From: Fragilaria crotonensis
Lineage: Eukaryota > Bacillariophyta > Fragilariophyceae > Fragilariales > Fragilariaceae
Assembly: GCA_022925895.1 (NCBI GenBank)
Contig: JAKSYS010000396.1
Coordinates: forward strand, 1 to 56,894
Length of the DNA stretch: 56,894 nt
Reading direction: 5' to 3'
Shown here: positions 6,829 to 53,387 of the stretch, piece by piece
Layout: each line of letters starts with the position of its first letter
Numbering within the stretch: position 1 is the stretch's first letter
Translations under genes and position numbers: made by a program
The notes under the pieces: model-generated
Databases searched by the model: none
The model's input: the letters and a program-made list of their open reading frames with translations, nothing else
What the model was told of the DNA's origin: nothing

Positions 6829-6831
6829 TCA
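6829..6831 (-). promoter_or_regulatory. C1: leaky gag stop, UGA-CGG context
   Basis: Gag ends N-S-D-UGA and the next codons, CGG GGA GGG TGG GCC, continue in the same frame into pol with no stop and no ATG. UGA-CGG is a recognised type II readthrough context, known from plant RNA viruses. About 30 nt downstream an inverted repeat, ACGTTAT-TAACG-ATAACGT, could form a 7-bp hairpin. That it functions is inferred, not shown. Confidence 0.65.
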
Positions 6832-7633
6832 ATCACTGTTTTCGTCGGATACTTCATGCTCAGCAACCTTCTGCTCCATCTTTGCAACATAGGCCTTAGC
6901 AATCTTCAACTTCTTGACGATTCCTTTCTTGTTGTCTTTGTTGTCGGAGCTTGCGGTTCTCTTCGTCGCATGTGTTTCCGAGTTGGGTGGTGGTGCACCT
7001 CCGCGGCAGTCCTTGGGCTTGTGTGCCCTCCTTTTTTCGCAGGTGCCGCCGGTGTCCTTGCCACACCAGTAGTAGGTGAATTCCTTGAATTTGGCTACCT
7101 TCTTCTCACCGGGCTTTGGTGGAGGCCAGTTCTTAGGGTGTTCAGCCTTTCCACCATCCTTGCCCGATTGTTTGGTCCGCTCTCCGGTCTTGCTTTTCCC
7201 TGTGGACGCACTTTTCTTTCCCATCTCGATGGAGACCTTTTTGTTCAGGTTCTTCATTGTGGAGGTGAGCTTCGCTTCGAGAGCGACGATCTTTTCCTCC
7301 GCTGTGGGGGCGTTCCAGGTACCTTTCTCGACCATGGCGTCGTACTTGTTCTTCGCCGATATCATCAAGTCGTCAGGGGATATTTCGTTCCCCTCCTCGT
7401 GGTCGTCCTGCTTGCGAGTGAGCCAAGCTCTGAACGTCTCGTCGCTCACTGCACCATAACCCTTGAAGAGGTTGATGAGAAGGTCAGAGGTTGTCTGGTT
7501 TCTCGCCGACAATGACTGGATGAGGAGCTTGACGTATTGGTTGAACTTTCCGATATCGCTGTTGATGGTGATGATGTATGTGTCCAACGTCGACAACTTG
7601 GTTCGGATTTGATTCGTTGTCGCGTTCGTGTCC
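6829..7633 (-). pseudogene. C1: gag, C-terminal two thirds
   Basis: This is the gag (capsid/nucleocapsid) portion to the left of Y1. It starts at the Y1 junction with D-T-N-A-T-T-N-Q-I-R, passes through a capsid-like helical region (KFNQYVKLLIQSLSARNQTT) and a long lysine-rich stretch. The zinc-knuckle variant is CGKDTGGTCEKRRAHKPKDC, spaced C-x7-C-x5-H-x4-C rather than C-x2-C-x4-H-x4-C. The tail is basic and charged and ends E-N-S-D before UGA. The apparent start further right (to 7695) is Y1 sequence and not part of gag. The rest of gag is at 15105-15550 and 31382-31425. Confidence 0.85.
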
Positions 7634-7959
7634 TTACATGGTCTGTGGTAGCCTAGTACTACGGTGCCTCCAGCGACACTAGCACCCAACAACACAGTAT
7701 GCGGTACCGAGACACTACGCCGTTATTAACAAAGCAGGCAGCCACGATGCACATGATATATTTTCTTCGGGTGTGGATACTGGATTGAACTACGAGGCAG
7801 GTCACCATTCGAATGCTCACACCAAAAAGAGCAGAAACGTGATCTCGCCGATCGAAGCTGGAGTGGGAAATTATTGGCTCACATCTATCCATCATCGGAT
7901 TGATTGTGCCTTCTCCACACCAGCATCCCATCCAAGCAACTAGCTTTAATATTTAATTT
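7634..7959 (+). repeat. Y1: repeat A1 (left terminus)
   Basis: This 326-bp direct repeat begins TTACATGGTCTG and ends TTTAATATTTAATTT. It matches A2 (14565-14890) almost perfectly: only T/C at about 7645 and G/A at about 7662 were seen to differ. It forms the left end of the element and probably holds the promoter for ORF1, which starts 4 bp downstream. Confidence 0.92.
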
Positions 7960-7962
7960 TCA

Positions 7963-10047: not shown

Positions 10048-10878
10048 CAGGGCTGGCCATCGGGGACGGTGCCCATGCCAACAACCGATGGCCCGCCAAA
10101 ATTACCTCCCACCCACCCCGTGCTCCCGTCCCGAGAGATTCATTCATTGGCCCGACGGGCGCACAAACAAGGGGAGTACATTTCGACAGAAAAGGGCTCA
10201 GCCAGTACGACAGAGCCCAACCCAGGCAGTGCCAGTATGGCAAGCCACGTGGTCGGAGCACCAGACACCGCTCGCGAACACACAGCAGCACGAAAGGGCT
10301 CAGCCAGTACGACAGAGCCCGACCCAGGCAGTGCCAGTATGGCAAGCCACGTGGGCGGAGAGATCGACACCACCCGAAAGCGCCAGTCAGCACTAAGGGG
10401 CTCGTCCAGTACGATCGAGCCAAACACAGGCAGTGCCAGTACGGCAGGCCACACAATCGGATCGCAGCGCCGCTCGAAGACGGGTCAAGGGCCATCAGCC
10501 AGTATGGCAGACACCTTCCCACCAAGGCCCCGGGACCCAACCAAGTATTCAGTCCCGACCCGCCACGTTGCACACGGAACTGTAACGGCGACGGGCCTAC
10601 ACCCCCGGGACAACAGCACCGCAGCCTTCCTCGCCGACGCCGCACTCGCCCGTATGGCGAGGCTGAAGTTCGAAGCCGCGGCGCGGACAGGAAACCCAGC
10701 GCGGCCGAGCTCGTGAGGAGTCGAGTCGCGACAGCCCCGGTTGGCAAACGACAGCCCTCTCCATGGGCCGCCCCAACCTCTCCCAAGCGCGACCAACCAA
10801 CGAGCGCCACTAGGAGGGGGGAGGAACGCAATGCGGGCAGACTCGAAGCCGCCGACCACGTTGACAGAGAAACACTAG
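10048..10878 (+). other. Y1: region between ORF1 and ORF2
   Basis: This 0.8-kb stretch is unusually free of stops. One plus frame is open from 9852 to 11051, another from 10069 to 10716, and a third from 10088 to 10396. None shows a recognisable domain; the peptides are rich in S, T, R, P and Q because of the 102-bp repeats inside. The ORF2 frame is open only from 10879. Either a linker protein is encoded here or the openness follows from the repeats. Confidence 0.5.
10194..10499 (+). repeat. Y1: three 102-bp tandem repeats
   Basis: The core GGGCTCAGCCAGTACGACAG recurs at 10194 and 10296, with a diverged copy at 10398, and each is followed by GGCAGTGCCAGTA(T/C)GGCA. The period is 102 bp, exactly 34 codons, so every reading frame is kept. 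A further short piece (GCCAGTATGGCAG) follows near 10498. Confidence 0.85.
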
Positions 10879-11088
10879 GTGAGTTACTATCGAACGTCGT
10901 GCGCCCCTACAAGATGAGTCCGCTCCCCAGCGACGCCGCGCTGTTCTTCCCCGAACCCCTCGAGGGTCCCACCACCGTGGTTCCTGGAAGGAATAAAGAG
11001 GATCTGTGCCAACGAGTCACCCACTCCCACCAAGTCGCCCATTCGCTTTGACTTATCCGACCAGGCCGTCGAACACAACGCAAAGGTG

Positions 11089-14327: not shown

Positions 14328-14364
14328 CGGAGCATGGTCAGTCGGTCAAAAGAAGGTTCAATGG

Positions 14365-15550: not shown

Positions 15551-15555
15551 GGGGG

Positions 15556-16077: not shown

Positions 16078-16233
16078 AAAGTCTACGACTATACTCTGCG
16101 TCTACTCCGACGAAGTCTGCGTTCTCTCGTGTTCTTTGTGTCACACAATATCAAGAACCACGTAGCCACTCCGAGTTGAATTTCTTCTCGACCATCTATC
16201 CGGGACCGCGTATTTCTGAACCCCGATACTATC

Positions 16234-20125: not shown

Positions 20126-20770
20126 CTCTGGTCGATACCCCCTGACTTAATGGAGTCGTGGTGCGTTTCGGCAACCCCAACCCCACGTTCTCCAACTCTG
20201 TCTCAACATCCTTGACAGCCCTCGCCACATACTTGGATGAAGACATGGCCCACCTGATCTTTCCCGGCTCGTCCGACTCGGGAATCTTGAACTGCTTGAT
20301 CTCAGCCCCAAGATATACGTCAGGCGCCTTCACGCTCCCATCCTTTAGCTTGTAAACCTTCGACAAAGCGTCCATCACATTCTTCGGATTAGTATCGAGG
20401 CAGAGGATGTCATCAACGTACGCCAGAACATAGCTGTAGAACTTGGTTCCATCGGCCTTCGTCGCGGCCTTCATCCACACGTCCGGGTCCGCCTTACAAC
20501 TCTTGTAGCCCATATCCCGCAGCGACGCAGCAAGGTGGTCCCTGAATCGTGCTCCCGACGACTTCATTCCATAAAGTGCACGCACTATCTTCGCTGGTCG
20601 TCCTCTCAAATCGGGTGGGAACTCCAACCCAGCAACGACATATAACCTCTCCTCAGTCGGCGCCGAGAGATAGGCATTCTGGATGTCGGCCGCCAAGATA
20701 TCGAGCCCATTCAAAGCCGCAAGAGTGAAAGCGATACGAACGCTGTCGCGTGAGACGACACTCGAAGGTC
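20046..20770 (-). pseudogene. C2: reverse transcriptase core
   Basis: The RT palm is LDILAADIQNAYLSAPTEER (motif A), ALYGMKSSGARFRDH (motif B) and YVLAYVDDILCL (motif C, about 20405-20430), followed by VYLGAEIKQFKIP. The visible frame ends in an artefactual tail after TPLSQG. Upstream the frame breaks at about 20770, within TFSSVVSRDSVRI. All catalytic residues are present, so only the two indels separate this from a working enzyme. Confidence 0.9.
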
Positions 20771-23466
20771 ATTTCCTTCGGCACATCATGCTTTGCGCCA
20801 TTCAGGACCAATCGCGCCTTCCTCGTCAGATCAAACTTGATGTCGAATATCATGTGACATGTCGCTTTTGCAAATCCAACCGGCGGGTTTGGGTCGTCGC
20901 TGAACTCAAATGCAATCATCACATTTCTCATCTCCTTTTCAATGGCATCACGCCAAAAGGTAGTCCCCGTTCTGCGATCAATCGCAAGCGCCTCGGCCAC
21001 AGTCTTCGGCAGTTCCACGCCATACTTGTGCGACCTCAGCCAATACTTGGTGGACTTTACCTTCTTGATTACACGATCCCGGCGGCGTAGCACATCGCGA
21101 ACCCACCAAGCAAATGCAGGTTCCTCTGCGATCTTGTTGGCAACCGCATACTCCGCCACCTCAACGGGGTTCGCTTCTTTCAAGTCCTTCAACGGAATCC
21201 AATCCGAAGTACCATCCTTCCAAGAGACCAAGAGTTTCCAACCCCTCGTCGTCAGCTTGGGACGACGCTGCCCATGACGGTTCTCAATGAAACCGTCGTC
21301 CTTTGACAGGGCCGATCCATCTTTCTTGTGGTCGGTGATCTCTTGCAAAATGGCAAAGTGGCGACCCTCGTCGTCCACCTGTGAATACAAGTTTTCGGCA
21401 ATCACATTCGCGGCATACGTCGCAGTCGATCCGTCCGGAAACTCAACCTGGTACTCCCGGGTGTCCAAGATAGGATTCGAGTGCCGCATGCCAAGTGGAT
21501 TACCGTCTCTTCCGTGCATCCGACCAATGACCTTTGCGCGTACCACGTCTTCGCCACGTGGCAGAAGCACGCTTGCCGAGATGTATTCGTCCATCGACTC
21601 AGGCGTGTAGTCGTCTGCATCCTTCCTGGTTGACTCAGGTTCGAGGGGTTCGAGATCGTCATCCGCATCCCGTTCCGCCTCCTGAACTTCTTCGATCGAG
21701 GGGAACAACCCGTCGAAGTCGTCGTCAACCTCTGATTGGCGCTTACTGTCGCCGATCTTGTCTTGCACCTCTTCGTCGAAGCGTTCCTTTGCCTCAATCG
21801 TGTGCTGCATCCGCTCGATCTCGTCCCCGATCAGAAAGACCGTTGACCTTGCGATCGGACGGCAGGAGATTGGCAATACCCAATGGCAGTTGCCGCTCCC
21901 AATCCCTCTTGCCGGTCCCAACCAACGACCAAGCTTCACCTCTCCGTCATGATCCATGTAATGTACCCATTGGTACCAACTGAACTGGACGTACATCGAG
22001 ATGTCGGGCGTGTCACCATCCACCCTTTCCGCCGGAACACGACCATTCAGAACCGGCGTATCGTGCGCCGTCAGTCGCCTTGTTCCGGCATACCATTCGC
22101 CGCAGAAGCACCAAGTTCGCTTTGGTGATCCTTCGGCTTGCATGAACCGACGAATTCCACGCTTGATAGCACGAATGGAACTCTCCGCCTTGTTTTGCCA
22201 CGGGCTATACGGCTCCGTCAGAGTTTGGCGGATCTGGTAGTCGCGGACGACGTCCTGCCAGTGCCTAGTTCTCTGCTCCAAGGCGCCATCCGAAATCAGC
22301 CAACCCGGTACCCCAGACTCTTGGATGAAACCGAGAAGTCCCCGGGAGGCGTCCGCCTTCGTCTTCAAAGGGTAGAACTCGTCGTACCCGTACCCATCTG
22401 TGAAGACCTGGGCACAAGTGTATCCACGCAATGACGTCGTCGGAGAAAACATCGTATCGGTGTAGAATTTCCCCGACAACCTTGGATAACGTATCGCCTG
22501 CTGCCTCGTCTTGAATCGCCGCGACACTGGATGCACGTACTTCCTTACTCCGACTTGCGTCGTAACCTCCAGCGTTCGCTTTGCAGTCTCCAATCCCAAT
22601 CCCCAACGTTTCGCCAGGACCTCCTTCGTGATAACGGAATCAGGTGACGACGTCGCCACTGCATAGAGCTCGTGTTCCAAACCAATCATGCAGATCCCAT
22701 CTCCTCTCAAGTCACCGCCTGAGACTTGCACCATTTCTTCGAGTCGCTCCGCTAGTAATCCATCGTCTGCACTTGCGACAGCCAAAATTTCCCTCGGAGT
22801 CATCAAACTCATCACTTCGTGCAGGTTTCCCCGCGTTCCTGTCCCCGAAAGCTGCATCGTGGTGCTGACCATAGAAACGTTGAAGTCGGTTCGCTCGCGG
22901 AGTTGGGTCTCAGCCTGACGAAAGTGTGGTGATCTAGGATCCCACGCCGCATCAGACGTCATTTCCAGCCGCGTACAGTTGGCGATCTCATCGTCAGTTG
23001 GTCTTCTCGAAGTAAAATACGAGACCACGCCCTCCATCTCCAAGGGAATCCTCAGCTTCGAATCCGGGAAGGATATATCGTGAGGTGAGTCAGCATCAAA
23101 TTGCTGAGGAGTATCACAAACAGAAAGCCCAAAAGCTCTTAGTTGATTGGGACAAAGGAGTGAAACAGGTAACCGTTCTCCTAAGAATAAACATTCGTTG
23201 AAGATCAACAAATATGTCTCCCCATCAGTCGGGCAATCATACGCCGTTGCCGCCGACACAATGGGGACCCCTTTCAGAGCATTATACTCTGAGGTGAATG
23301 GAGTTACACTAACTGTTTGACCAGTATCCTCCAACACCACCATGTTGCACCCCGCAACACAGGTATCCGCATGCGAGTCCATCTCGGACCTGTCCACACA
23401 TGCTCCGCTTGACATGGCCTTGATCACGCGCTCAGCGGTGCTAGCGGTGACCATTAGGACCTTGCG
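20653..23466 (-). pseudogene. C2: protease, integrase, chromodomain-like module and RT start
   Basis: This frame follows the gag UGA directly, with an in-frame ATG at 23454. The protease-like site is MDSHADTCVAG (about 23348-23383). In place of an HHCC finger the integrase has LAKRWGLGLETAKRTLEVTT. Its acidic triad lies in FYTDTMFS, ISDGALEQ and NKAESSIR. After the integrase comes GRWLGPARGIGSG, an acidic linker (DDDFDGLFPS, DADDDLEPLEPE), the segment YQVEFPDGSTATYAANVIAE, and a chromodomain-like WKLLVSWKDGTSDWIPLKDL with EVAEYAVANKIAEEPAFAWW. RT begins at YGVELPKTVAEALAIDRRTG. It is a single open frame of about 937 codons. Confidence 0.9.
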
Positions 23467-24871
23467 TCAGTCCGAGTTGGCGTTTCCGCCACCTCGGTTA
23501 CCACTCCCACCAGAATGGGCTCTCCTCCCAAACTGGTCGCCTGCGTTCGCGGACGCTGACGTTGGAGTCGGGGCATTACCGTCCCCGTTTCCGTCCCCGG
23601 AATCAACCCCAGAGACAGAAGCTTGGCGTTCCTTCTTGGCTTTCTTCTTCCCTTTGCCGCCGGCTTCCTTGCGTGCCTTAACGACCGCAGCCCGCTCGGC
23701 ATCAGACATAGCCCACCACTCCTCATTGGAGTAACCTTTGGTGTTTGCTTGCTTCTTGCCACCCTTGCGTTTGGTTCCCTTGCCACCCGACGACTTGGAA
23801 CCTGCGCCGGTCGACGCGGAGCTCACGCTCCTTGCCGCACTCCCAGCATCCTTGTAGGCCCGCGTCGTCGTCGCTAGCGTCGAAAGATACTGCTGACAGC
23901 TTTCAAACGACTTGAGCTTCGGGCTCACCAAAGCAATGCGTCACACCCATCTGCAGAGTCGGATCCTTGATGTTCGCCAAGAAATCCTGAACCTTCTTCG
24001 TCTCGGGAACGGCCTCACCCACCAGCTCCAGTTCAGCGTGAGCTTCCTGGTGAGCTTGGACATAATGCTGAAACGTCCAATTGCGTCGATGTCCAGTAAA
24101 CTGGGACGCACCGAGCTTCGCATAAGCCTTCGCCTTGATAGTCATGTTAGCGCTCTCGCCCTCACACTGCTTCCTGAGAGCAAGAACTGCGCCGCGACCA
24201 TCCTTCTTGGCGTCAAAGTGCTTGATAAAGGTCCAACCAGGTCCGTCCGAGATATAACTCTTGAACTCTGCATAGTATCGCTTGTTGTCGATGGCGTAAT
24301 GTTGGCCTTCGAGCACGGTATTGTTGACCAAATGGTCGTCCAAATCATCGTACTCGACGTCCCGCACTTCGTTCGTCACCTCCGTGTGCGCTCGATGAAT
24401 GTAGGACAACGGGCATCTCGCCTCAGCTCGGAAGTGGTAGATGTAATTGTCCCATGACTCCCACCACTTAACCCACAAGCTGAGGTTCTTGAGCACCTCC
24501 GGCTTCCTTGGAGTCATGGCATCCATGCCATCCAGCAACTTCTTCTCCTCCTGCATCCTATCCACCGCCTCCTCTGCCTTGGCCCTCGAGAAATCCTCCG
24601 AGTTCGCCTCGAGTCCACATCGAATCTGCGACGCAGTCCAATGGCGAAAACCTTTAAGGAGGTTAACGCTGACAAAGGGAAAGTTAACTCCTTGGCGTGG
24701 GTTGTTCCTTGCAACCTGCCTCGTCATATCGGAGAGACTGTCTTCAGAGACGGTCAGAAGCGTCAACGGGGAAGTAAATCCCTGCGCAACGATCGCCTCT
24801 GCGGTGACCCTGTTGAAACCGATGTAAACGAGTGCCTCGGTGAACTCCTCGGACTGCTCGTCGTCGTCCAT
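23467..24871 (-). pseudogene. C2: gag
   Basis: The likely start is the ATG at 24871 (M-D-D-D-E-Q-S-E-E-F-T), not the upstream start at 24976, because related gags begin with this helical domain (YIGFNRVTAEAIVAQGF). The capsid-like part includes WVKWWESWDNYIYHFR and KAYAKLGASQFTGHRRNWTF. A 1-base break near 23925 separates it from the C-terminus (SFESCQQYLSTLATTTRAYK), a serine/glycine/lysine-rich tail with YSNEEWWAMSDAERAAVVKA and no CCHC knuckle. It ends N-S-D-UGA-CGC, and pol continues in the same frame. Confidence 0.85.
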
Positions 24872-33660: not shown

Positions 33661-36269
33661 ATCAGTCCCTGTTCGCTCATCGATCTTAAGGGCCTCTGCC
33701 ACAGTCTTTGGGAGCTCAATGCCAAACTTATGCGTCTTCGCCCAGTATCTGGCCTTGACTTTCTTGATTATCCGATCCCTTTTACGCAAGACGTTGCGCA
33801 CCCACCAAGCGAACGCAGGTTCTTCAGCGATCTTGTTGGCGACAGCGTACTCCGCAACTTGAATCGGATTTGACTCTTTCAATTCTGACAATGGTACCCA
33901 GGTCGTTGAGCCATCCCGCCATTCGACTTGCAACTCCCATCCCCGCGTAGTGATTCGTGGATGTCTCCGTCCCCGTTTGTCTTCAACAAACCCGTCATCC
34001 TTTGACAAGGCATGTCCGTTCGTTCGGTGATCGACAATTTCACTCATCACTGCATAACTTCGTCCCTCGTCATCGACCTGGGATAACATGTTTTCGGCAA
34101 TGAGGTTTGCAGTAATCGCTTCCGTTGATCCGTCTGGAAACTCCACCTCATAGAGACGTGAATCCAGTAACGGATTTGCATGGCGCTGCCCAATCGGACG
34201 ACCATCATGGTCGCGCTTCCTCCCAATCACAGTTGCTTTCTTAGCTTCTCCACCTTGGGGAAGTAGCACCTGGGCAGTTAAGTATTCATCATAGGACTCA
34301 GGGGTATGGTCTTCGACATCTTTGGCGGTGCCATCAAGGTCCCCTGTCCCTGACTGAACGTCGTCCTCGTCATCTTCGAAGACATCATCAGGAACCTCCG
34401 GCATGGAGTCCATTAGGTCTGGGTCGATGTCCTCTGTCTTGAGTCCATCCCCAATCTTAGACTGGATACCTTCATCCAATTCAGATAGTCGGAGCTTTAT
34501 ATCTGGGTTGGCAAGATCATCCTCACTCAATCCCCAAACAGATTTCCGCACAATCACCTTCCCAGATCTGGTCAGGATATAAAACGCCATAAGGTCGGTT
34601 GAAACCTCGGCAACACCAATCCATCGACCAAACAACTTCTGCTCAAACGGGAAGCTGCCAACCGGGTCCCAGTACATGACCGGCTCATACCAATCAAACT
34701 GGGCGTACTGGGAAATGTCGGGTGTACATCCCAGCACGTCTTCATCTGGTACCCTTCCTTGGAGTTGGGGTATATCAAGGGCCGTCAGTCTTCTTATTGC
34801 TGCTACCCACTTTCCACAGTAACACCAAAGTCGCTTCGGTGCCTTGGAGCGCCGCAAGGTCCTCCGGATCCCGACCTTCAATTCTCGAATCGTTGACTCA
34901 GCCAGGTTGGACCACGGACTGTATGGGACAGTTTGTTCTTGCTTGACGCGGAACCGTCTACAAATCTTTCCAAACTCACCGTGGACCTCTTCAGGTGCAT
35001 TGTCTGTCACAATAGTCTGGGGTATCCCAACCTCTTGAATGAATGGCATCAAAGCATTTTGACCAGCCAAGCCTTTGCTTTTCATGGGGTAGAAGTGGTC
35101 ACTCCCACGACCATTGGTGAACACCTGTGCAGCCAAGTGTCCCCTGACTGATTGTGTCTTCGAAAACATCGTATCCGAGTACCAGCGCCCGCTTAGGTTT
35201 GGGAAAGCGAGATGATCAAGCTTCTGACGTACCTTCCTTTCACCCGGTGCCAAGACATTTCTTATCCCAGATTGTGTTGTCACTTGCAACGTTCTCTTGG
35301 CAGTGTCAAGGCCAACTCCCCATCTTCTGGAAAGAATCTCAGGTGTTAAGGCAGATCGTTTCTCACTAGTTGAAAGGGAAAACAATTTCCGGCTTTCTCC
35401 ATCCATTGGGTAGACATCATTGTCCGTTCTCCCGGATAAGCCGTCACCGACAATGTCATCTACTGCGACGTTGATTGCAGCCACCAACCGGTTCCCAAGA
35501 GAGTCATCCTCCAGACCGATGGGAGCGTTCATCGAGCTTAAAGATTTCACCGCCGAAACCAACCTCGAAGCATTCCTCACATGATCAGTTGCCAATAACG
35601 TTTCGGCAACACTCACGCTGGAAACATATGTCTCCTCCTTTTGGCAAACTGGTCAGAAGAGGGATCCCAGCGCATCGGGGATGTCAATTCAACGTGGGGG
35701 TATTGTTCGTATTCTTCCCAAGTGGGTTTACGACTCACGAAACCGGAAGAGATGCCGTCAAGGGATAAAGGAATTCGCAACTTTGCGGTTGGGTGATAAA
35801 TTGAATGCGAAGACTTGGAATCAAACTGGCGGGGTACATCCTCAACCGTGACTCCATTCGCACGTAGTTGGTTGGGGTTGAGCAGAGTGACATCCACTCG
35901 GTCCCCGAAATACAGAGCCTCGTTGATAATGAGGATGTACGGTTGCCCGTCAGTAGGGTGAATCCACAAAGTCGCAACAGTGGCGATGGAGACATCCGGT
36001 ATGGGCTTATATTCACCGCTGTAAGGATGAACGGTGACCTGACGACCTTCGTCAGAGACAAGCAGAGTGTTGCGACCTGCGACACAAGTATCCGCATGAG
36101 AATCGAGTTCGGTGCGTGTATCTTCATCGTCCCCGGAGGGTGTCGATGCGGATACGCGAAAGACATGTTTCACAAACCGAGAGCAAAGATTAGAAGGGGG
36201 CCCGGCCTCTCGAACATAAGTGGAGACTAACATTAGGTCGTCTGTCTTAACGAGAGCCGGCGCGAGGCA
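33631..36269 (-). pseudogene. C3: protease, integrase and chromodomain-like module
   Basis: Pol continues in frame after the gag UGA as C-L-A-P-A-L-V-K-T-D-D. Protease-like LDSHADTCVAGRNTLL is at about 36075-36110. A frame break near 35640 separates it from the integrase. The integrase has LSRRWGVGLDTAKRTLQVTT instead of HHCC, then WYSDTMFSK, TDNAPEEVHG and NLAESTIRE as acidic sites. After GRWIGVAEVS come acidic linker segments, YEVEFPDGSTEAITANLIAE, and a chromodomain-like WELQVEWRDGSTTWVPLSEL with VAEYAVANKIAEEPAFAWWV. It ends in RT at FGIELPKTVAEALKIDERTG. Confidence 0.9.
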
Positions 36270-37698
36270 TCAAGCCTGCTTCTGCTGCTCACCATGAGCA
36301 GCACGACCAAACTGTTTTCCAGCATTGGAAACCACAGGTGTCTTGGTGCCTTCATTGTCATCAGGGGTGCCTCCTCCTGAGTCGCGACAACGGCAACGCT
36401 GCGAGCGTCAGACTTGTCCTTCTTCTCCTTCTTCTTTGCTTCCTCACGGAGCTGCTTGACTTTCGCCTTCTCGAAAGGCTTCAATTTGTTGTAGTCTTTG
36501 GCCGAGTATTGGCCAGAATGAATTGCAATGCCACTTGGTGTCTTGTCATCATCATTGGACTTCGACTTGTCTTTCTTGTGCTTAGCCTTCTTCTTGTCCT
36601 TTTCGACTCCAACCTTAGAGATCTCACGAACATCAGAAGGTGACTTGGTCCTGGTCTTGGTATTTTCCACAATCGTCTTGAAATACTGCTGGCACACTTC
36701 AAAGTTGGTCAACTTTAGTTCATCGCCCATGCAACCTTGAATGGCGGTCTCCAACTTTGGGTCACGTATCCCAGCCAGAAAATCTGTAACCTTCTTGGTT
36801 TCAGCAACTGGCTCTTCCAAAAACAACAATTCATTGTGAGCCTGTTGAAGACGTGCAACATACTGATCAAATGAGAACTTGCCCTTGCCAGTGTAGGTAG
36901 CTGTTGCGAGCATGTTATATGCCTTAGCTTTCCTAGTGGCAATAGCAGACTTGCCCTCTGCCTGCGACTTCAAAGCCTTGAAAGCTGCACGACCATCGCG
37001 CTTCTTGTTAAATGTCTGAAGGAATGGCCATCCCTGTCCCTCCATCACAAAGGGCTTAAGGATGTCAAACACACGCTTGTTGTCACGAGAAAAGGTTTCA
37101 CCCTCGAGGACGGAAGTGGCGATCAAGTCATCATCGACTGAATCCCAATTATTGCGCGCAAGATCATCTGGCGCCGCCTCATCATTGTCCCGGATGACAT
37201 AAACAAGCGGGGTCCCCGCCACGACACTCCTCTGCTGAGCAAGGTAAGTCATAAACAGTTCAATCCAAGTAGGCCATGCAGTCATTAACATTAACTTTGG
37301 CGGTTCCTTCGCATCGTCCCCATCCTTCTTTGCTCGAGCAATCTCCTCCAACTCAGTCAATCGATTGAGAAAGCGCGACGAGGTGCGTTCATCGAAAAGA
37401 GCGGGGTTTGGAGCATCGCCGCGAAGAAGGGAGTAATCTGCCCACGAGCGTAGGGCCTTAAACTTCCTAACCGCAAGGTAAGGGAACGTTGGGGACGCGA
37501 CAGGATCATCGTCGTCATCGACATCAGCCGCCTTTGGCTTCCACCTGGAGAGGTGCTGAATCATAGTGTCAATCTCTGGAAAGGTAAGGCAGTTAGATCA
37601 TTGATGGTACGAATACCTTGGTTTGCAATCAATTCCCGCGTAGGTACATCAAAACCCAAGCGGGTAAGGCAAGCAGTGAAGGATCTGGCATCAGCCAT
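36270..37698 (-). pseudogene. C3: gag
   Basis: The likely start is the ATG at 37698 (M-A-D-A-R-S-F-T-A-C-L-T). A 1-base break near 37580 leads into the main frame (MIQHLSRWKPKAADVDDDDD). Capsid-like features are MLMTAWPTWIELFMTYLAQQ, LEGETFSRDNKRVFDILKPF and VTDFLAGIRDPKLETAIQGC. The basic tail contains GQYSAKDYNKLKPFEKAKVK and ends AGKQFGRAAHGEQQKQA before UGA at 36270-36272. This ending matches C5 gag (AGKQFGRAAHVEQQKPA). The open frame running on to 36233 is a shifted reading of the same sequence and is not the true C-terminus. Confidence 0.85.
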
Positions 37699-41298: not shown

Positions 41299-41520
41299 TG
41301 AATAAATACTGTGGTACTGTGTACTGATGTACGGTTGCGTTGTGTGTGGTTTCATTGACCGTTACACATGCACTGTGCTAGTGTTAGCGATAGAGTGTTT
41401 GCGTGAGCGTATGAACTTACTTATCTTAAGATCTTATCTTCTTTATCCTTTTACTCTCTTGTTACTACTCTAGTAAGTCTATTGCGAGCGTAGCGTTAGT
41501 GAGGCGGCTAGATTTACACA
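41299..41520 (+). repeat. C4: 5' LTR (222 bp)
   Basis: It begins TGAATAAATACTGTGG and ends GATTTACACA, directly followed by the PBS. The duplicated GTAA lies to its left. Confidence 0.93.
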
Positions 41521-41815
41521 GTTTATCAGACCCATGACAATAGCGGGTGGAATGAGAAGAGAAGAGAGAGCCAGAGCGCGTCATGTATTGAAATTGTCAT
41601 GTGGATGTAACGAAATGTCGTTTGTGTTATTTCCTACGGTTGTTGGCGACGACGGTCGCTAGGGGCTCCGGTCACACGGCATTGATGATGAGAAGGAATC
41701 TTCCCATGCATCGCCAGCGTAGCGAGCGGTCAGTAGAGGCTGATCACCTCGATGACATTTAGCGTATATGCGTTTAGCCCCGCACATGTTAACCTAACGA
41801 TGAATATCGCAGAAA
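41521..41815 (+). other. C4: primer-binding site and leader
   Basis: GTTTATCAGACCC at 41521-41533 adjoins the LTR and is the same PBS as in C2 and C3. The remaining 280 bp up to the gag ATG contain nothing recognisable. Confidence 0.7.
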
Positions 41816-43267
41816 ATGGCTGAAGCTCCTATTGCCCTAGTTGGTATGAACCATGTCCTTAATGTCATCGGTTTCGATGACATCAATGATAGGGACAATA
41901 TTATGGTGGCGGGACTTGCGCAGTTTGAGGATTTTCGTTACCTAGTCGAGAAGGATATTCGTGAAATGGCGGAGGAATTCGGGAAGCGTACACAGGCGAC
42001 TGGTAGGGTTGTTTTTGGGCTTGGAAGAACTAAAAAGTTAATTGGCGTGATGCATTGGGTTCAGGACTGTTACAGAGCGAGTGATATTCCTAACCATGAG
42101 CACTTTGATGAGGAGGCACTATTTGAAGCGTTAAGTATGGCACAGATCCGAAAATCCGACATGGAGTTGGTTGCCACAAACTCAAAGGCAGCGGACCCGG
42201 GGAAGTTCAAGGATGAGCGTAAGTGGCCCGAATGGGAGAAAGCGTTTACTAACTACTTATCGGTCATTCCAGGAGTCAGTGGTATTCCTCTCTCATACGT
42301 CGTGAGGGAGCAAGATGAGCCTACCCCCGGGATGGAGTACTCTACTTTCAATGAGCGAATGGTGCACCGCGCACCGTTGACAGGTCAGTATTTTATAGCT
42401 GATGCCAGGAGGGTTCATAATCTACTGGTCGGGTTCCTTCAGGGAGAAAACACAGAGAATTGGATTCGTAATATCGCAAAGTATCAAGATGGGCGTCGTG
42501 ACATGTTCGCGTTGCGACGTCATTATGCTGGTGAAGGAAATTCGACGCGACGTATCGCAGATGCCAAGCGGATTCAAAACTCCCTCCATTACAAGACAGA
42601 GCGAGCGTTGCCATTCAACAAGTTCCTAGACTCTCTACAGCGTATGTTCACGATATTCGAGGAGGAGAATGAACCACTAACGGAGCGCGCAAAGGTGGAC
42701 GAACTATTGACTAAGGTGCAGAACACATCGTTGGCGGCCGCGGTAGCTCAGTTGAGGTATCAATTGAATACTGAAGGCATTTCTTTTACCGTTGCTGCTA
42801 ACCACTTAAACTCCGAGATTTCGCAGACGTCTGACTATCAGCTGGCAAGAAAGATAAGCGCTTATGGTACTGGCGGTCGTGGCACTGGTCGCGGCGGTCG
42901 GTCTAGCGGACGTGGCGGTCGACATGCCGGTCGCGGACGAGGCGGCCGCAGTGGACGAGGCACTACTAATGAAAAGGCATCGAATACAGGGTACTATTCT
43001 GCGGCGGAATGGGAGAAACTGTCGTACGAAGAACGCGACAAAATCCGCAAGGAGCGTGACAAGAAAGGAGAGCAGGGTGGTACTAAGCGACACATTTCTG
43101 AGTTAACCACCAAACAATTGACCACAGCAATCATCAGCTCCATTCAAAAGGCGGTTATGGCAGATGACTCAAAGGAGGACGATACGGCGTCAAAGAAAAC
43201 CAACAACCAAGCCGGTAATTCCTTTGGCGGGAAGGAAAGCGTGAAACGTACGAAGACTAGCGAATGA
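41816..43267 (+). CDS. C4: gag (483 aa)
   Basis: This intact gag starts MAEAPIALVGMNHVLNVIGF. The N-terminal domain resembles that of the other gags here, and the capsid-like middle includes FKDERKWPEWEKAFTNYLSV and PLTERAKVDELLTKVQNTSL. Residues about 350-385 form an arginine/glycine-rich RGG/GRG stretch (GRGGRSSGRGGRHAGRGRGG), which probably binds RNA in place of a zinc knuckle. The C-terminal tail, YSAAEWEKLSYEERDKIRKE, is shared with C2 and C3 (Y-S-x-x-E-W). It ends K-T-S-E-UGA-CUA, and pol continues in the same frame. Confidence 0.88.
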   Translation: MAEAPIALVGMNHVLNVIGFDDINDRDNIMVAGLAQFEDFRYLVEKDIREMAEEFGKRTQATGRVVFGLGRTKKLIGVMHWVQDCYRASDIPNHEHFDEEALFEALSMAQIRKSDMELVATNSKAADPGKFKDERKWPEWEKAFTNYLSVIPGVSGIPLSYVVREQDEPTPGMEYSTFNERMVHRAPLTGQYFIADARRVHNLLVGFLQGENTENWIRNIAKYQDGRRDMFALRRHYAGEGNSTRRIADAKRIQNSLHYKTERALPFNKFLDSLQRMFTIFEEENEPLTERAKVDELLTKVQNTSLAAAVAQLRYQLNTEGISFTVAANHLNSEISQTSDYQLARKISAYGTGGRGTGRGGRSSGRGGRHAGRGRGGRSGRGTTNEKASNTGYYSAAEWEKLSYEERDKIRKERDKKGEQGGTKRHISELTTKQLTTAIISSIQKAVMADDSKEDDTASKKTNNQAGNSFGGKESVKRTKTSE

Positions 43268-43270
43268 CTA
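43265..43270 (+). promoter_or_regulatory. C4: leaky gag stop, UGA-CUA context
   Basis: UGA followed by CUA is the best-characterised readthrough context in eukaryotes, used by alphaviruses and some cellular genes. The downstream frame (L-Q-A-T-P-R-T-V-A-A-Y) runs to the protease without an ATG, so readthrough is the simplest way to make pol here. This is inference from sequence and context. Confidence 0.7.
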
Positions 43271-44782
43271 CAGGCCACTCCTCGGACGGTGGCAGCGTAT
43301 CAATCTACTCAGCGACGAACGGCGACAAACAAATTTGCGAACATCTCATCGTACTCATCTAACATCTCTACCATCACAGCGCGGAATGAACTTGATTCTC
43401 ATGCAGACACATGCGCTCTTGGTTCTAATTTCGTACCTTTGCATTACACCGGTCGCGTATGCGACGTCTCACCTTACAACTCTAACACTTACCATCCTGA
43501 ACGTGACGTACCCATTGTGACTGGAGCGACGGCGTACACGGACCAAGCGACAGGTCAGGTGTATATCCTGGTTATTAACGAAGGCTTATGGTTCGGCGCG
43601 AAGCTCACGAACTCGTTAATTAACCCCAACCAGTTACGATATGCGGGCGTTGCAGTGCAAGATAACCCTTTCCATCCTACAGACCAAATGGCGATTACAC
43701 ACGACGATGCCATTTTCCCTCTGCAATCCATGGGGACTACCATATTCTTTGACACGTCCACCCCAACCCAATATGAACTCGATCACTCACCACATATTAT
43801 CCTTACCCTTGACACCGAATGGAATCCACACACCGTACAGCTCGCAGCTGTGCAGTCTGTGGAGGCGGAAGATATGTTCGGTGGTACAGAGCCTGGTTTG
43901 CAACAAATATCCTCGGTATATTGTTTCGAAGAGATGGCGGAAAGTCTGCGAATGGCGCGGCAGATTTGCATGGTTGACGTTGAAGCGCGTAAAACATTTA
44001 TATCTAAAGAGCGACATGCAGCGGTTACGAGCGAAAATCTAAGCGAGAGGTGGAATATCGGATTGAACCAAGCGAAGCAAACGTTAAAAGTTACGACGCA
44101 ACGAGGCGTCAGATCCGCGATATTACCTGTGAGCCGAAGGTATCGGACTGACAGGATGTATCACCAAAAGAAATTGCGGAATCAGAAATTTTACACTGAC
44201 ACTTTGTTCGGACGATGCAAATCCATATCTAACAACACGTGTGCACAAATATTTGCGAACGAATCTTATTTTGTGAAAGCTTACCCAATGGAACGAAAGT
44301 CAAAGGCCGGACAGGCGCTTCGACAATTTATTCGCGACTTCGGAGTACCAGAACAACTCACCTCCGACGGCGCCAGCGAGCAGACTGGACCTAAAACAGA
44401 ATTCATGCAAAATGTGAGGAAGTATGAGATCGAGCACCACGTCAGCGAACCGCACCGACCACAGCAGAATAGAGCGGAATCGGTGATACGGGAAGTTAAA
44501 AGGCGATGGTTCCGGCAAATGACAAAGAAGCGAGTGCCCAAGAGACTCTGGGACTACGGTATAGTATGGATATGTGAGGTCATGTCACTTACAGCAAATT
44601 CAAACTTTGCATTGGAAGGGCGAACACCTTTGGAACAACTGACCGGCGAGACGCCTGACATCTCAGAGTACCTTGATTTCAGCTTCTACGATTGGGTGTG
44701 GTATAAGGACAATGCCGGCGTTGGTGACAACATGTTCGGGAGATGGCTTGGGGTCTCCCATCGTGTTGGCAATCTGATGTCG
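43268..44782 (+). pseudogene. C4: protease and integrase
   Basis: The frame is open directly after the gag UGA. Protease-like LDSHADTCALGSNFVPL (about 43388-43440) is followed by the conserved INEGLWFGAKLTNSLINPNQ. The integrase has LSERWNIGLNQAKQTLKVTT where an HHCC finger would be. Its acidic sites are FYTDTLFGR, TSDGASEQ and NRAESVIRE, then GETPDISEYLDFSFYDWVWY and GRWLGVSHRVGNL. The frame ends at a TGA created by a missing G (TACTGATACTT) near 44783; the alternative frame continues W-I-L-T-T-N-G-R-V-I-S. Confidence 0.92.
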
Positions 44783-45800
44783 TACTGATACTTACAACTA
44801 ACGGTAGAGTTATCTCTCGAACCACAGTACAGCGAGTGACGAATCTCGAATCAACCACAACGGAGGTCAAGCAGCGGATTCAAGAATTTGACGAACGGAT
44901 AGCGGAATTACTTAAGGACGATAATCACATCATCCGAGAAGGTAATGAACGACAATTGCAGGACTGGGACGATTACACAGAAGATATTGATGACGGTGAC
45001 TTTGCACAAACGTTTGGCGAAATTATATCGGACGCGCAGATATCAGAAGCGGATGAAGATTTTACACCTGACACCTTCGATGATCCATACTTGAATAAAG
45101 AAATAGCGTTAGCGAGCGGGGCGAACGAGGTGCAATTCGGTAAAGTGACTAAACGACTTCGTGATGCCGAAGGGCGTCCGATTGGGACCGCTAACGAGAA
45201 CCCATTGTTGGATACGAGAGAATATGCGGTCGAGTTTCGTGACGGCCACTCGGAATCTGTATCCGCGAATCTTATTGCACAAAACTTGTACTCACAACTT
45301 GACGAAGAAGGTAAGCGTCATATCTTGCTCGCAGACATTGTTGACCACAGACGAGACGAGCGAGCGGTTGACAAACGGGATGCGTTTGTTACTATGAGAA
45401 ACGGAGTCAAACGACGACGTGAGACGACGCAGGGATGGCAGTTACTATGTGAATGGAAAGACGGTAGCTCCAACTGGGTCGCACTTAAGGATGCTCGTCA
45501 GTCGTATCCGGTACTAGTTGCCGAATATGCGATTGCGAATCGAATCGAGGAGGAGCCAGCTTTCGCATGGTGGGTATCTGACGTCATCAAGAAGCGAGAC
45601 AGAATCATTGCGAAGGTGAAGTCCAAGTATTGGCAGCGAACGCATAAGTATGGTATAAGAATCCCGAAAACGGTACAGGAAGCGTTGGCGATTGACAAGG
45701 AAAATGGCAACACGTTGTGGTGGGATGCTATATGTAAGGAGATGCGAAACGTTCGACCTGCGTTTGAGAAGTGGGAGAAGAAAGAGGGCGAACTCCACCT
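44783..45800 (+). pseudogene. C4: post-integrase linker, chromodomain-like module, RT start
   Basis: This is the second pol frame. LTTNGRVISRTTVQRVTNLE completes the integrase C-terminus. An acidic linker (DWDDYTEDIDDGDF) leads to YAVEFRDGHSESVSANLIAQ and a chromodomain-like WQLLCEWKDGSSNWVALKDA with PVLVAEYAIANRIEEEPAFA. RT begins at YGIRIPKTVQEALAIDKENG. A 1-base loss near 45795, in a C run (AACTCCACC), shifts the frame into the RT core. The open frame past this point, to 45915, is out of register. Confidence 0.88.
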
Positions 45801-47331: not shown

Positions 47332-47451
47332 GAAAGCCTAGGTTCATCAGACATCATGGGGTGTTTGGTTACCTCCTGGACATGCAAAGACATGTGGCTT
47401 AAATTTACCAGGTCGATTTGTGGCGAATAATATCACGGTACCCTTGATACT

Positions 47452-47685
47452 GTTCGAGGGGACTGAATAAATACTGTGGTACTGTGTACTGATGTACGGT
47501 TGCGTTGTGTGTGGTTTCATTGACCGTTACACATGCACTGTGCTAGTGTTAGCGGTAGAGTGTTTGCGTGAGCGTATGAACTTACTTATCTTAAGATCTT
47601 ATCTTCTTTATCCTTTTACTCTCTTGTTACTACTCTAGTAAGTCTATTGCGAGCGTAGCGTTAGTGAGGCGGCTAGATTTACACA
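47452..47685 (+). repeat. C4: polypurine tract and 3' LTR
   Basis: TTCGAGGGGAC (to 47463) directly precedes the LTR at 47464-47685. The LTR equals the 5' copy except for one A/G difference. The duplicated GTAA follows. Confidence 0.93.
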
Positions 47686-47990
47686 GTAAAGCTGAGCTAA
47701 ATCCTTCGACGGTCGTGCTTATCCGGGTGTCCGAATAACTCGAACTCATGATAGAATTCATTCAGTCCCCTCGGGCTAGGCGTCACAGACAACTAGTCCG
47801 ACCCATATTTATCATGCAGAGGCCGGCCACCATTGGCTAGTTTTGGTGGTTCCACGTGTCGTCACGCGTACGTCCACCCATTCGCTTACATAAAGCTGGG
47901 GTTAGTGGTTCCACGTACGTCGTGTACTCCACTCGCATCATGTCACACCTGGACATTTTGCACGCCAGTATCATGTCCGTTTTGGACACT

Positions 47991-49560: not shown

Positions 49561-52208
49561 AACTCGAATGCCGGCATAACATTCTTCATTTCCTGCTCCA
49601 TCGCCTTTCTCCAAAGTCGGTCCCCGTTCGTTCATCGATCTTAAGGGCCTCCGCCACCGTCTTCGGCAGTTCAATTCCGAACTTATGCGTCTTAGCCCAG
49701 TATCTGGCCTTGACCTTCTTTATGATTCGATCCCGTTTGCGCAGAGCCTTGCGTACCCACCAAGCAAATGCCGGTTCTTCAGCAATCTTGTTGGCGACAG
49801 CATACCCGCAACCTCCACCGGGTTTGACTCCTCAATTCTGACAATGGAACCCAGGTCGTTGAACCATCGCGCCACTCGACTTGCAAATCCCAGCCTCGCG
49901 TAGTGATTCGCGGATGCCTCTTACCATATCGGTCTTCCACGAAGCCATCATCCTTTGAAATAGCGTGGCCATTAGTCCGATGGTCGACAATCTCACTCAA
50001 CACAGAATAGCTTCGTCCCTCGTCATCAACCTGGGACAGCATGTTCTCCGCGATCAGGTTAGCCGCAATTGCTTCTGTCGAACCGTCAGGGAATTCCACC
50101 TCGTATAAGCGAGTATCCAACAACGGGTTTGCGTGACGCTTGCCAATCGGCCGACCATCATGGTCGCGCTTCCTCCCAACGACGGTTGCCTTCTTGGCTT
50201 CACCGCCCTGGGGAAGGAGCACCTGAGCAGTCAAATATTCATCATAAGATTCAGGGGTGTGGTCATCGGTTCCCTCATCAGGACTTGGCGTGTCCCCTGG
50301 ATCGTTACGACCTTCGTCTTCATCGTCAAAGACGTCATCTGAGATTTCCGGCATGGAACCTCTCAGTTCTGGGTCGATGTCCTCCTCCTTGAGATCATCC
50401 CCAATTTTGGAGCGGATGCCCTCATCCAACTCCACGAGCCGAGTCTTTATGTCAGGATTAGCAAAGTCATCTTCGCTCAGTCCCCAGACAGACTTGCGGA
50501 CAATAATCTTCCCAGTCTTAGTCAGAAGGTAAAATGCCATCAGGTCTGTTGAGACTTCGGCAACTCCAAGCCACCGTCCAAGCAACTTCTGCACATGTGG
50601 GAAGGTACCAACTACCAACTGGATCCCAATACAAGACTGGCTCATACCAATCAAACTGGGCATACTGGGAGATGTCTGGTGTAGATCCCAACACGTCTTT
50701 GTCGGGAACTCTTCCCTGGAGTTGCGGCATATCAAGTGCCGTCAATCGTCGAATCGCCGCCACCCACTTACCGCAGAAACACCAAAGGCGTCTCGGTGCC
50801 TTCGAACGACGTAAGGTTCTCCGGATCCCAACCTTCAGCTCTCGAATCGTTGACTCCGCCAGGTTCGACCATGGACTGTAAGGAACTGTTTGCTCTTGCC
50901 GAATTCGAAATTGGCGACAGATCTTCCCAAACTCCCCGTGGACTTCCTCTGGTGCATTGTCAGTCACAATCGTCTGGGGTATTCCAACCTCTTGGATAAA
51001 GGGCATCAGAGCATTTGGTCCGCCATGCTCTTGCTCTTCATGGGATAGAAGTGATTGCTCCTCGACCATTCGTAAACACTTGCGCCGTCAAGTGTCCCTG
51101 ATCGATTGCGTCTTCGAGAACATAGTATCCGAGTACCACTTACCGCTCAAGTTGGGGAACGCAAGGTGATCGAGTTTCTGACGCACTTTCCTTTCGCCTT
51201 TTGCCAAAACATTCCTGATTCCGGATTGCGTTGTCACTTTCAATGTCCTCTTAGCAGTGTCAAGGCCAACTCCCCACCTCCGAGAAAGGATCTCAGGTGT
51301 TATGACTGATCGTTTGTCGCTCGTAGAAAGGGCAAACTTTCGGCTTTCGTCGTCCATCGGATAAACGTCATTGTCGTTGCGACCGGACAAGCCATCTCCA
51401 ACAGTGTCATCTGCTGCGACATTGACTGCAGCCACCAAGCGATCCGCCAGAGAGCCATCCTCCTGACCGATGGTGATGCATTGCACGCAAAGATTGCACC
51501 GCAGAAACCAACCTGAAGCATTCCGCGCATGATCAGTTGCCAACAACTTTTCAGCAACGCACACGCTGGAAACATATGTCTCCTCCTTTTTGGCAAACTG
51601 GTCAGAAGAGGGATCCCACCGCATCGGGGATGTCAATTCCACGTGAGGATATTGCTCGTATTCCGCCCACGTTGGCTTACGACTCACAAACCCAGAAGAG
51701 ATACCGTCAAGGGATAAAGGAATACGCAACTTTGCGGTTGGGTGAAAAATAGAATGCGAAGACTTGGGGTCAAACTGTCATGGAACATCCTCAACAATGA
51801 CACCATTCGCGCGTAATTGATTTGGGTTCAGCAGAGTGACATCTACTCGGTCCCCAAAATACAGAGCCTCATTGACAATGAGGATGTATGGTTGTCCATT
51901 CTGAGGATGGATCCACATAGTCGCAACCGTGGCGATGGAAACATCCTGTATGGGTCTATATTCACCACTGTAAGGGTGAACAGTGACCTGACGACCTTCG
52001 TCAGAGAGAAGCAGAGTGTTGCGACCTGCAACACAAGTATCCGCATGAGAATCTAGTTCAGTCCTCATGTCATCGTCATCGTTGCCGCATGGCTTGGACG
52101 AGACACCAAAGACATGTTTCACAAAACGGGAAGAGCAAAAGGCCCGGCCTCTTGAACATAAGATTCACCTAACTTTAGGTCTGTCTTAACAAGAGCCGGT
52201 TCGGATCG
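49561..52208 (-). pseudogene. C5: protease, integrase and chromodomain-like module
   Basis: Order on the minus strand: protease-like LDSHADTCVAGRNTLL (about 52025-52060), then INEALYFGDRVDVTLLNPNQ-type sequence (51778-52122). A frame at 51088-51729 carries LSRRWGVGLDTAKRTLKVTT and WYSDTMFSK. The frame 50518-51069 carries TDNAPEEVHG and NLAESTIRE. The frame 49779-50735 carries GRWLGVAEVSTDLMAFYLLT, YEVEFPDGSTEAIAANLIAE and WDLQVEWRDGSTTWVPLSEL. RT starts near 49690. At least five frame breaks separate the segments. The codons after the gag UGA (R-S-E-P-A-L-V-K-T-D) match C3. Confidence 0.88.
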
Positions 52209-53387
52209 TCAAGCAGGCTTCTGCTGCTCAACATGGGCAGCACGGCCAAACTGTTTTCCAGCATTGGAGGACAGGGGTCTCCTTCCTTCATTGTCAGGTG
52301 GAGCATCCTCCTGAGTAGTGACAGCTGCAACACTTCGAGCTTCAGACTTCTCCTTCTTCTCCTTCTTCTTTGCTTCACGGAGCTGCTTGACTTTAGCCTT
52401 CTCAAAAGGCTTCAGCTTGTTGTAATCCTTGGCAGAATACTGCCCAGAGTGAATCGCAATTCCACTCGGCGACTTGTCGTCATCACTTGACTTACCCTTC
52501 TGCTTGGCTTCTTCTTCTTATCCTTAACAATTCCAACCTTGGCAATCTCGGATGTCGGAGGGCGACTTCGTCCTGGTCTTGGTGTTCTCCACAATTGTCT
52601 TGAAGTACTGCTGGCACACTCAAAGTTAGTGCTTCGCTCATCGCCCATACAAGTTTGAATAGCAGTCTCCAACTTTGGGTCACGAATACCAGCAAGGAAA
52701 TCGGTAACCTTCTTGGTCTCTGCAACTGGTTCCTCCAAGAACAACAACTCATTATGCGCCTGCTCCAACATACTGGTCAAAGGAGAACTTCCCTTTCCCA
52801 GTGAAGATGGCAGTAGTAACCATAGCATAAGCCTTGGCCTTCCTGGTGGCAATTGCAGATCTGCCCTCAGCCTGCGACTTCAAGGCCTTGAAGGCAGCAC
52901 GTCCATCGCGTCTCCTGTTGAAGGGTTGGACAAAAGGCCAGCCAGGTCCCTCCATGACAAAGGGTTTGAGAATATCAAACACTCTCTTGCTGTCGCGCGA
53001 GAAGGTTTCACCCTCCAAGATTGACGTGGCAACCAAGTCATCATCGACAGAGTCCCAGTCATTGCGTGCAAGATCATCAGGGGCAACCTCATCATTGTCA
53101 CGAATGACATAAGCCAGAGGGGTTCCAGCAACAACGCTTCTGTGTTGGGATAAATAAGTTGTAAACAGTTCAACCCATGTTGGCCATCCTGTCATCGACG
53201 CCAGCTTCGGTGGATCCTTCGTGTCATCCCCATCCTTCTTGGCTCGATCAATCTCCTCCAACTCCGTCAACCGATTTAGAAAGCGCGTGGTGGCGCGCTC
53301 GTCAAAGTGGGCAGGGTTTGGAGCATCACCGCGAAGGATACAGTAGTCCGCCCAAGAGCGAAGAGCCTTGAACTTCCGGACCGCAAG
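52209..53387 (-). pseudogene. C5: gag, truncated by Y2
   Basis: The gag resembles C3 gag. From the Y2 junction it reads L-A-V-R-K-F-K-A-L-R-S-W-A-D-Y, then LTELEEIDRAKKDGDDTKDP, GWPTWVELFTTYLSQHRSVV and VTDFLAGIRDPKLETAIQTC, and ends AGKQFGRAAHVEQQKPA with UGA-CGA at 52209-52211. Frame breaks lie near 52500, 52640 and 52770, the last with a small deletion relative to C3 (SFDQYVARLQQAHNELLFLE). About 40 N-terminal residues are missing and should lie beyond Y2, outside the window. Confidence 0.87.

Follow-up and report, generated by a model that had tools for sequence, protein, structure and literature searches.

In-frame UGA codons between gag and pol in copia retrotransposons of the diatom Fragilaria crotonensis, and the case for their readthrough

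Gag, pol and the UGA junctions in the window

A stretch of 56,894 nucleotides (nt) from the freshwater diatom Fragilaria crotonensis (contig JAKSYS010000396.1, C333 in our numbering) was analysed as a whole and is called the window below. It carries five retrotransposons of the copia type, C1 to C5, and the subject of this paper is the UGA codon that lies between gag and pol in these elements and the way in which Pol may be translated past it. A preliminary description of the window had located this UGA in all five elements and named the codon that follows it, and in each case the sequence agrees. The junctions and the adjoining features are:

6829..6831, minus strand: gag stop UGA of C1, then CGG (read from the sequence)
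6832..7722, minus strand: gag of C1, 297 open codons in the UGA frame (open reading frame, ORF, and repeat comparison)
3772..6828, minus strand: pol ORF of C1 past the UGA, 1018 codons (RVT_2 match of 36.8 bits)
23467..23469, minus strand: gag stop UGA of C2, then CGC (read from the sequence)
20653..23466, minus strand: pol ORF of C2 past the UGA, 937 codons (ORF list)
36270..36272, minus strand: stop UGA of C3, then UGC, so that the +4 base is not C (read from the sequence)
36233..37597, minus strand: main gag ORF of C3, in a frame other than that of the UGA (ORF list)
41299..41522, plus strand: left direct repeat of C4, taken as long terminal repeat (LTR; 100% identity over 224 nt with the right repeat)
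41804..43264, plus strand: gag ORF of C4, 487 codons (ORF list; 301 protein relatives)
43265..43267, plus strand: gag stop UGA of C4, then CUA (read from the sequence)
43268..44788, plus strand: first pol ORF of C4 past the UGA, 506 codons (protease motif DSHADT at codon 43; weak integrase match)
47464..47687, plus strand: right direct repeat of C4, taken as LTR (100% identity over 224 nt with the left repeat)
52209..52211, minus strand: stop UGA of C5, then CGA (read from the sequence)

C1 is a copia element with RVT_2 (PF07727, the copia-type reverse transcriptase), and C2 to C5 form a second copia clade with the common protease motif D-S-H-A-D-T. RVT_2 scores above its cut-off in two ORFs of C1 (36.8 and 71 bits) and in C4 (76.3 bits), while the Pfam matches of rve to the pol of C4 and C3 remain under the cut-off. 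The protease motif lies ahead of the reverse transcriptase, and identical direct repeats border C4 and C3. The division into a clade with an HHCC integrase and one without, proposed in the preliminary description, is weakly backed: PF13976 reaches 26 bits on the C1 pol, short of its cut-off of 28.4, and has no match on the C4 pol ORF.

Open codons before and after the UGA were counted, for each element, in the frame of the UGA itself. A single gag-pol frame interrupted by UGA had been claimed for all five testable elements, and it is seen in C1, C2 and C4. In C2, 157 codons are open before the stop and 937 after it, and the upstream gag changes frame ~150 codons ahead of the UGA. The claim does not hold for C3, in which most of gag occupies another frame and the UGA frame is open for no more than 45 codons ahead of the stop (218 after it), nor for C5, where 102 codons are open before the UGA, the frame closes after 29 codons and the protease sits in another frame. 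Since C3 and C5 are frame-broken and the gag frame of C2 switches, the window on its own does not bear out so broad a wording. Usable frames are limited to C1, C4 and, after the upstream frame change, C2, and by itself the window makes a weak case for gag-UGA-pol readthrough. The residues PALVKTD past the stop are indeed common to C3 and C5, as had been noticed.

About 30 N-terminal codons of the 297 in C1 gag belong to the repeat of a neighbouring element, which starts at 7631. This element of ~7.2 kb (7631-14861), with direct repeats at 7631-7930 and 14562-14861 that are 99% identical, appears to cut the C1 gag at 7631. The pol of C4 is split over several frames despite the identical direct repeats of the element (41299-47687). 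A copy on contig C156, with the same protease-region protein as C4, has a frame of 1357 codons there, with its gag frame closed 70 codons upstream. These differences between the two copies suggest recent changes or assembly indels.

The stop and its context across the genome

The genome (62.1 Mb, 881 contigs) was searched with protease-side protein stretches of C4, C1, C2 and C3 and with the C1 junction DNA. The loci are a non-random sample, consisting of best-scoring matches (8, 30 and 30) and 80 stretches hand-picked from the match lists. Together with the five window junctions, the 148 loci gave 153 records, 96 of which contain a conserved gag-end box and an in-frame stop. Three of these (L009, L039 and L066) duplicate C4, C1 and L043, respectively, and without them 93 distinct junctions remain. 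The 57 records without a parsed junction include eight reverse transcriptase loci (L001-L008), C5, stop-less lineages and frame-broken copies. As the junction filter required a stop of any type at the site, and not UGA, the constancy of the stop type rather than the presence of a stop is the result.

At this homologous site, 92 of the 93 junctions have UGA and one has UAG. The UGA is thus present in genome-wide copies more often than chance would give. The +4 base is C in 84 junctions, U in seven (six of them UGA-UGG), A in one and G in one. The next codon is CTC in 23 cases, CGG in 20, CTA in nine, CTG in eight, TGG in six and CTT in five; CGA, CAT, CAC and CCC occur three times each, CGC and CAA twice, and CAG, CGT, CCA, TGC, AAC and GGA once. 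Exactly CGG or CUA is found in 29 of the 93, and CUN and CGN account for 45 and 26, respectively. Clustering at 90% identity yielded 51 clusters, 45 of which have a majority of C at +4, compared with 17% of neighbouring codons starting with C. Only these clusters were used; at 80% and 70%, with gapped columns ignored, unlike families merged. A binomial value and a test of Leu/Arg codon choice treat related clusters as independent, and neither is relied on here.

Among the unparsed records, 37 were re-read by alignment, and 20 of these cross the stop while 17 do not. The 20 comprise 17 with UGA (16 with C at +4), one with UAA (L038), one with UGG (L034) and one that is misregistered in the alignment (L117) and has UGA-CGC in a separate reading. 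In four copies this UGA separates a gag frame of at least 446 codons from a pol frame of 1353 codons or more. UGA-CGG is also present in the C1-family loci L040-L044, which are 70-98% identical to C1 at the nucleotide level. More distant relatives of C1 have, at the same site, UGA-CUG (L129), UGA-CGG (L132), UGA-UGG (L130, L131 and L133-L136) or UAG-GGA (L138).

The preliminary description had called for the +4 to +6 bases to be scored across copies and for constraint downstream of the UGA to be assessed. A maximum-likelihood tree of gag ends was built from 150 trimmed columns of gag end and junction (77 tips; support values were not considered), and changes were counted by the Fitch method over the 66 UGA tips of the C4 superclade, leaving out the 11 stop-less tips. 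None of the three stop bases changed, against two changes at +4, nine at +5 and 17 at +6. For comparison, first codon positions took 5-19 changes each in the 12 codons ahead of the stop and the next 11 downstream, and third positions took 6-25 where the amino acid of the column never varies. Within the superclade the codon after the UGA switches among CTN, CGN, CAN and CCN with C retained at +4, and the C1 family likewise has both CGG and CTT/CTC there. Because the tree shows few or no changes at these bases while the encoded residue switches among Leu, Arg, Gln, His and Pro, UGA and the C at +4 are held as nucleotides.

The ratio of nonsynonymous to synonymous substitution rates (dN/dS) is 0.26 for the codons past the UGA (16 independent pairs) and 0.14 for the last 40 codons of gag (18 pairs), which argues that both sides of the UGA are translated in one frame. 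Constraint downstream of the stop is thus found at the level of the protein. The lengths of nucleotide gaps in the linker, taken modulo 3 in loosely similar pairs, are uninformative (75, 90 and 68 for remainders 0, 1 and 2) and do not, alone, favor a coding linker; the dN/dS values do favor one.

Protein relatives beyond these junctions end at a similar place. Among the best 120 of the 301 relatives of C4 gag, 95 end 8-12 residues past the FGG[KR] box, and 84 of the 120 listed relatives of C1 gag end 12-20 residues past the KAYxA box; the others listed are shorter, lack the box or, one in each set, end elsewhere. As most listed gag proteins end there, a stop at this place is common among relatives, and the proteins do not tell which stop it is. 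Most of these relatives come from the sources ena, jgi or lgn, and some are from F. crotonensis itself. No relatives at the DNA level outside this genome were found in the viral contigs or genome contigs searched.

A predicted RNA stem past the stop

For one representative of each of the 51 clusters, the 120 nt after the UGA were folded and compared with the 120 nt before it, using dinucleotide shuffles as background. The mean z of the fold is -1.57 after the UGA and -0.45 before it, and z is below -2 in 33% and 16%, respectively (paired Wilcoxon p 1.7e-4). The predicted 5' arm begins ~7-12 nt past the stop. At the 10th to 12th nt its mean pairing probability is 0.88, compared with 0.52 in shuffled sequences, and it falls to background by about the 28th nt. 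This 5'-arm signal exceeds 95% of shuffles in 26 of the 51 representatives, compared with 3 of 51 in the upstream control, and after synonymous resampling that keeps the protein it still does so in 24, compared with two in the control. A downstream stem had not been among the predictions of the preliminary description.

In C1 the fold is located as follows:

6738..6822, minus strand: folding region of C1 past the UGA, with the arm GGGUGG from 7 nt after the stop (predicted fold)

Stems closed by GGGU/ACCC are predicted in 8 of 10 rows of the C1 family, and in C1 and L040 the partner of this 5' arm is a neighboring CCACCC. In the group L129-L138 (set A), a hairpin of 11-12 bp has double changes in two pairs, with a covariation score above all 500 shuffles. 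Double changes are also found in 7 of 14 predicted pairs in a set of nine rows around L096, L103 and L113. Strong folds without C at +4 are predicted for L130, L133, L134 and L138 (z -3.2 to -4.5), and the remaining representatives without this base fold poorly (L100, z 0.23; C3, z -1.18). Judged by these models, a 3' stem at the spacing known from viral type II readthrough signals (see below) is present as a feature of the population, weaker in the C4 group and absent in some members.

Readthrough, its rivals and its precedents

In copia elements of this diatom, translation very probably stops at the UGA to give Gag and less often reads through it to give Gag-Pol. The proposed signal resembles type II, with a UGA that in most cases has C as its next base (chiefly as CUN or CGN) and a stem with its 5' arm ~7-12 nt further on. 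Most ribosomes would terminate at the UGA and release Gag, whereas a few, perhaps a few per cent, would continue after a near-cognate tRNA inserts a residue there, and the resulting ratio of Gag to Gag-Pol may serve particle assembly. What the sequences themselves contain is a conserved in-frame stop, its constant identity, the constraint at +4, protein-level selection on both sides and the stem signal. Readthrough had already been proposed in the preliminary description, and the copies across the genome, the C at +4, the protein constraint and the stem lend it support. More tentatively, it seems probable that a large radiation of diatom copia elements relies on readthrough as its regular way to make Gag-Pol. 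In this scenario, an old inherited or repeatedly gained signal in at least two deep clades would have drifted among UGA-CUN, UGA-CGN, UGA-CAN/CCN, UGA-UGG and UAG-GGA, mostly with a stem, and would be absent from at least two side lineages, which lost it or never had it.

Several observations weigh against readthrough through such a signal. Nine of the 93 junctions lack C at +4 (seven have U, one A and one G), the stem is individually non-significant in 25 of the 51 representatives, and the fold is weak in the C4 group itself, where several z values are near or above 0. When the protein is kept, the shift in overall folding energy is modest (mean z -0.97, compared with -0.48 in the gag-end control). 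The number of pairs with double changes in set A, taken by itself, is reached in 42 of 500 shuffles, and in a further set, L076-L108 (set B), covariation is no better than in shuffles (158 of 500), though 96.7% of its cells pair. Two lineages have no stop at the site, i.e., a group with the protease motif DSNADTCC (L086-L123) and the pair L104 and L109; in these only ~150 codons upstream were read, so that a stop elsewhere is possible. L034 (contig C87) carries UGG-CGT at the stop site and is a sister of copies with UGA-CGT or UGA-CGG, perhaps as a natural loss of the stop. Finally, 300 nt around the UGA of Tca2, a retrotransposon of Candida albicans, gave no readthrough in Saccharomyces cerevisiae (PMC2194720). 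A sense codon or a different frame in other copies had been named as counter-evidence to look for. The stop proved to be missing only in the two side lineages and the single copy, and the other readable junctions have UGA except for one UAA and one UAG.

Production of Pol independently of readthrough, through splicing, a shorter RNA or re-initiation past the gag stop, appears improbable. Drosophila copia does use splicing, and minor promoter activity was reported in the Tca2 junction (PMC2194720). Furthermore, in 51 of the 93 junctions a Met codon follows the UGA, either ahead of the protease motif or in the first 50 codons. The preliminary description saw no ATG before the protease in C1 and C4, which is correct for C4, with zero Met codons, but not for C1, in which four (at codons 94, 141, 143 and 149 past the UGA) precede the protease motif at codon 164. 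Nevertheless, 32 of the 66 linkers in the C4 superclade, that of C4 included, lack a Met before the protease motif (for longer linkers, in the first 50 codons), and splicing or re-initiation leaves unexplained the constant UGA, the C held at +4, the stem at a fixed distance and the purifying selection on the codons past the UGA. Still more doubtful is the idea that the UGA is a sense codon, by a reassigned code or as selenocysteine, within one long ORF. The frame is open through the UGA and L034 has UGG (Trp) in its place, but 140 of the 150 RVT_2 matches listed for this genome have no internal stop, the other ten containing UGA (six), UAA (three) or UAG (one), and L138 has UAG at the site. 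Moreover, no match to a selenocysteine insertion sequence (SECIS) was found in the C4 element at E up to 5 nor in the window at gathering scores, and a reassigned codon would need neither C at +4 nor a stem.

Chance or decay, with stops in dead copies, is almost certainly not the explanation. C2, C3, C5 and many genomic copies are frame-broken elsewhere, but stops arising by decay would scatter in place and type, whereas 92 of 93 are UGA at one site, where the tree needs zero changes, and copies whose gag and pol have long open frames are no exception. It is, finally, very unlikely that ribosomes bypass the stop by shifting out of frame and back or by hopping. Frameshifting occurs in other LTR elements, and the choanoflagellate elements Sroscv4 and Sroscv5 were reported with slippage motifs (PMC6875170), but the signal found here matches readthrough. 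On the evidence against each of them, we rejected stops arising by chance, a reassigned UGA, selenocysteine, and splicing or re-initiation as the principal route.

The readthrough signal proposed here has clear counterparts in RNA viruses. A review (PMC3542737) describes type II motifs, known from alphaviruses, tobraviruses and coltiviruses, as a UGA that generally has CGG or CUA as its next codon; most also have a structured 3' region, in many cases an extended stem-loop beginning ~8 nt past the stop. UGA-CUA and UGA-CGG had been recognized as such contexts in the preliminary description. Some of the diatom junctions share UGA-CGG or UGA-CUA with them, and as a population they share the stem position. 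They differ in belonging to gag and pol of retrotransposons and in also using CUC, CUG, CUU, CGA, CGC, CGU, CAN and CCN. Type III motifs, as in gammaretroviruses and tombusviruses, generally have UAG as the stop, with a G or a purine-rich octanucleotide on its 3' side and RNA structure of some kind downstream (PMC3542737). L138 (contig C545), a single copy, has UAG-GGA-ACA and a predicted 11-bp hairpin where its relatives carry UGA. With UAG, a following G and 3' RNA structure, it would qualify as type III; the alignment of its relative L139 does not cross the stop site.

A stop is not a feature of all copia elements in this genome, since lineages with the protease motif DSGAS (L142, L144, L145 and L147), DTGAS (L146) or DNGAS (L141) are open for 300 codons upstream of the query start.

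Among retrotransposons, the nearest parallel is Tca2, which is of the Ty1/copia type; neither it nor Tj1 (see below) had been brought up in the preliminary description. It has a UGA between in-frame gag and pol, its Pol is made from a gag-pol RNA, and RNA structure 3' of the stop was proposed (PMC2194720), all of which resembles the diatom arrangement. Unlike the many diatom families with C at +4 and a stem, it is one yeast element, with a purine-rich 8-nt spacer and a possible pseudoknot. In the Ty3/gypsy elements Tj1, Tcry1 and Tosmo of fission yeasts, the 8 nt GAA-UGA-CU between gag and pol of one frame are strictly conserved; removal of the Tj1 stop almost abolished transposition, and the stop is needed for efficient integration (PMC4600332, PMC10085805). 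Similarly, GAA or GAG directly precedes 51 of the 93 diatom stops. However, superfamily and host are different, the next codon is far more variable in the diatom (CGN, CAN, CCN and UGG besides CUN), and UAG and stop-less forms exist among the diatom relatives. The CoDi elements of Phaeodactylum and Thalassiosira, also diatom Ty1/copia, are mentioned as having one or no stop codon or a frameshift between gag and pol (PMC2806351); in the text consulted, that survey is silent on which stop is used, on its context and on any RNA structure or readthrough. Neither readthrough in diatom copia elements nor programmed readthrough in diatoms was found to be reported in the open-licence literature, judged mostly from the opening lines of abstracts. 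Thus, gag-pol readthrough is known in principle, and what looks new is the setting proposed here, together with its breadth and variation.

The literature, as far as its accessible text goes, gave few LTR retrotransposons with readthrough from gag into pol, and the sole copia case there, Tca2, is the one with the negative reporter result. Here, dozens of lineages in one alga agree in the stop, in most cases also in the +4 base, and many have a stem; natural switches of stop type and stop-less lineages occur alongside. This makes testable which +5 and +6 bases and which range of stem strength are tolerated, whether UAG-G and UGA-C interconvert, and how stop-less elements work. If readthrough is indeed used, this single genome would constitute a natural mutation series for readthrough signals, diatom ribosomes would read UGA-C at useful rates, and the elements would also count as evidence for programmed readthrough in diatoms.

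Further features of the window concern pol and the neighboring sequences. The pol of C2 to C5 (20653-23466, 33631-35652, 44728-45915 and 49779-50741) shares a stretch like WKDGTSDWIPLKDLKEANPVEVAEYA between the integrase and the reverse transcriptase. Pfam gave only a sub-threshold match to DUF7141, in C3, for this stretch; by eye only, we take it to recall a chromodomain. The ORFs of the ~7.2-kb element next to C1 (7957-10047, 10918-13593 and 12945-14327) have no Pfam match at E 0.01, and the latter two, presumably and by eye only, resemble a reverse transcriptase and a tyrosine recombinase, respectively. No Pfam match above its cut-off was obtained for the ORF at 16180-17478. The regions 15555-18943, 26146-30173 and 30209-31378 contain stretches that are repeated two to three times, most of them 100% identical over the 200-300 nt shown.

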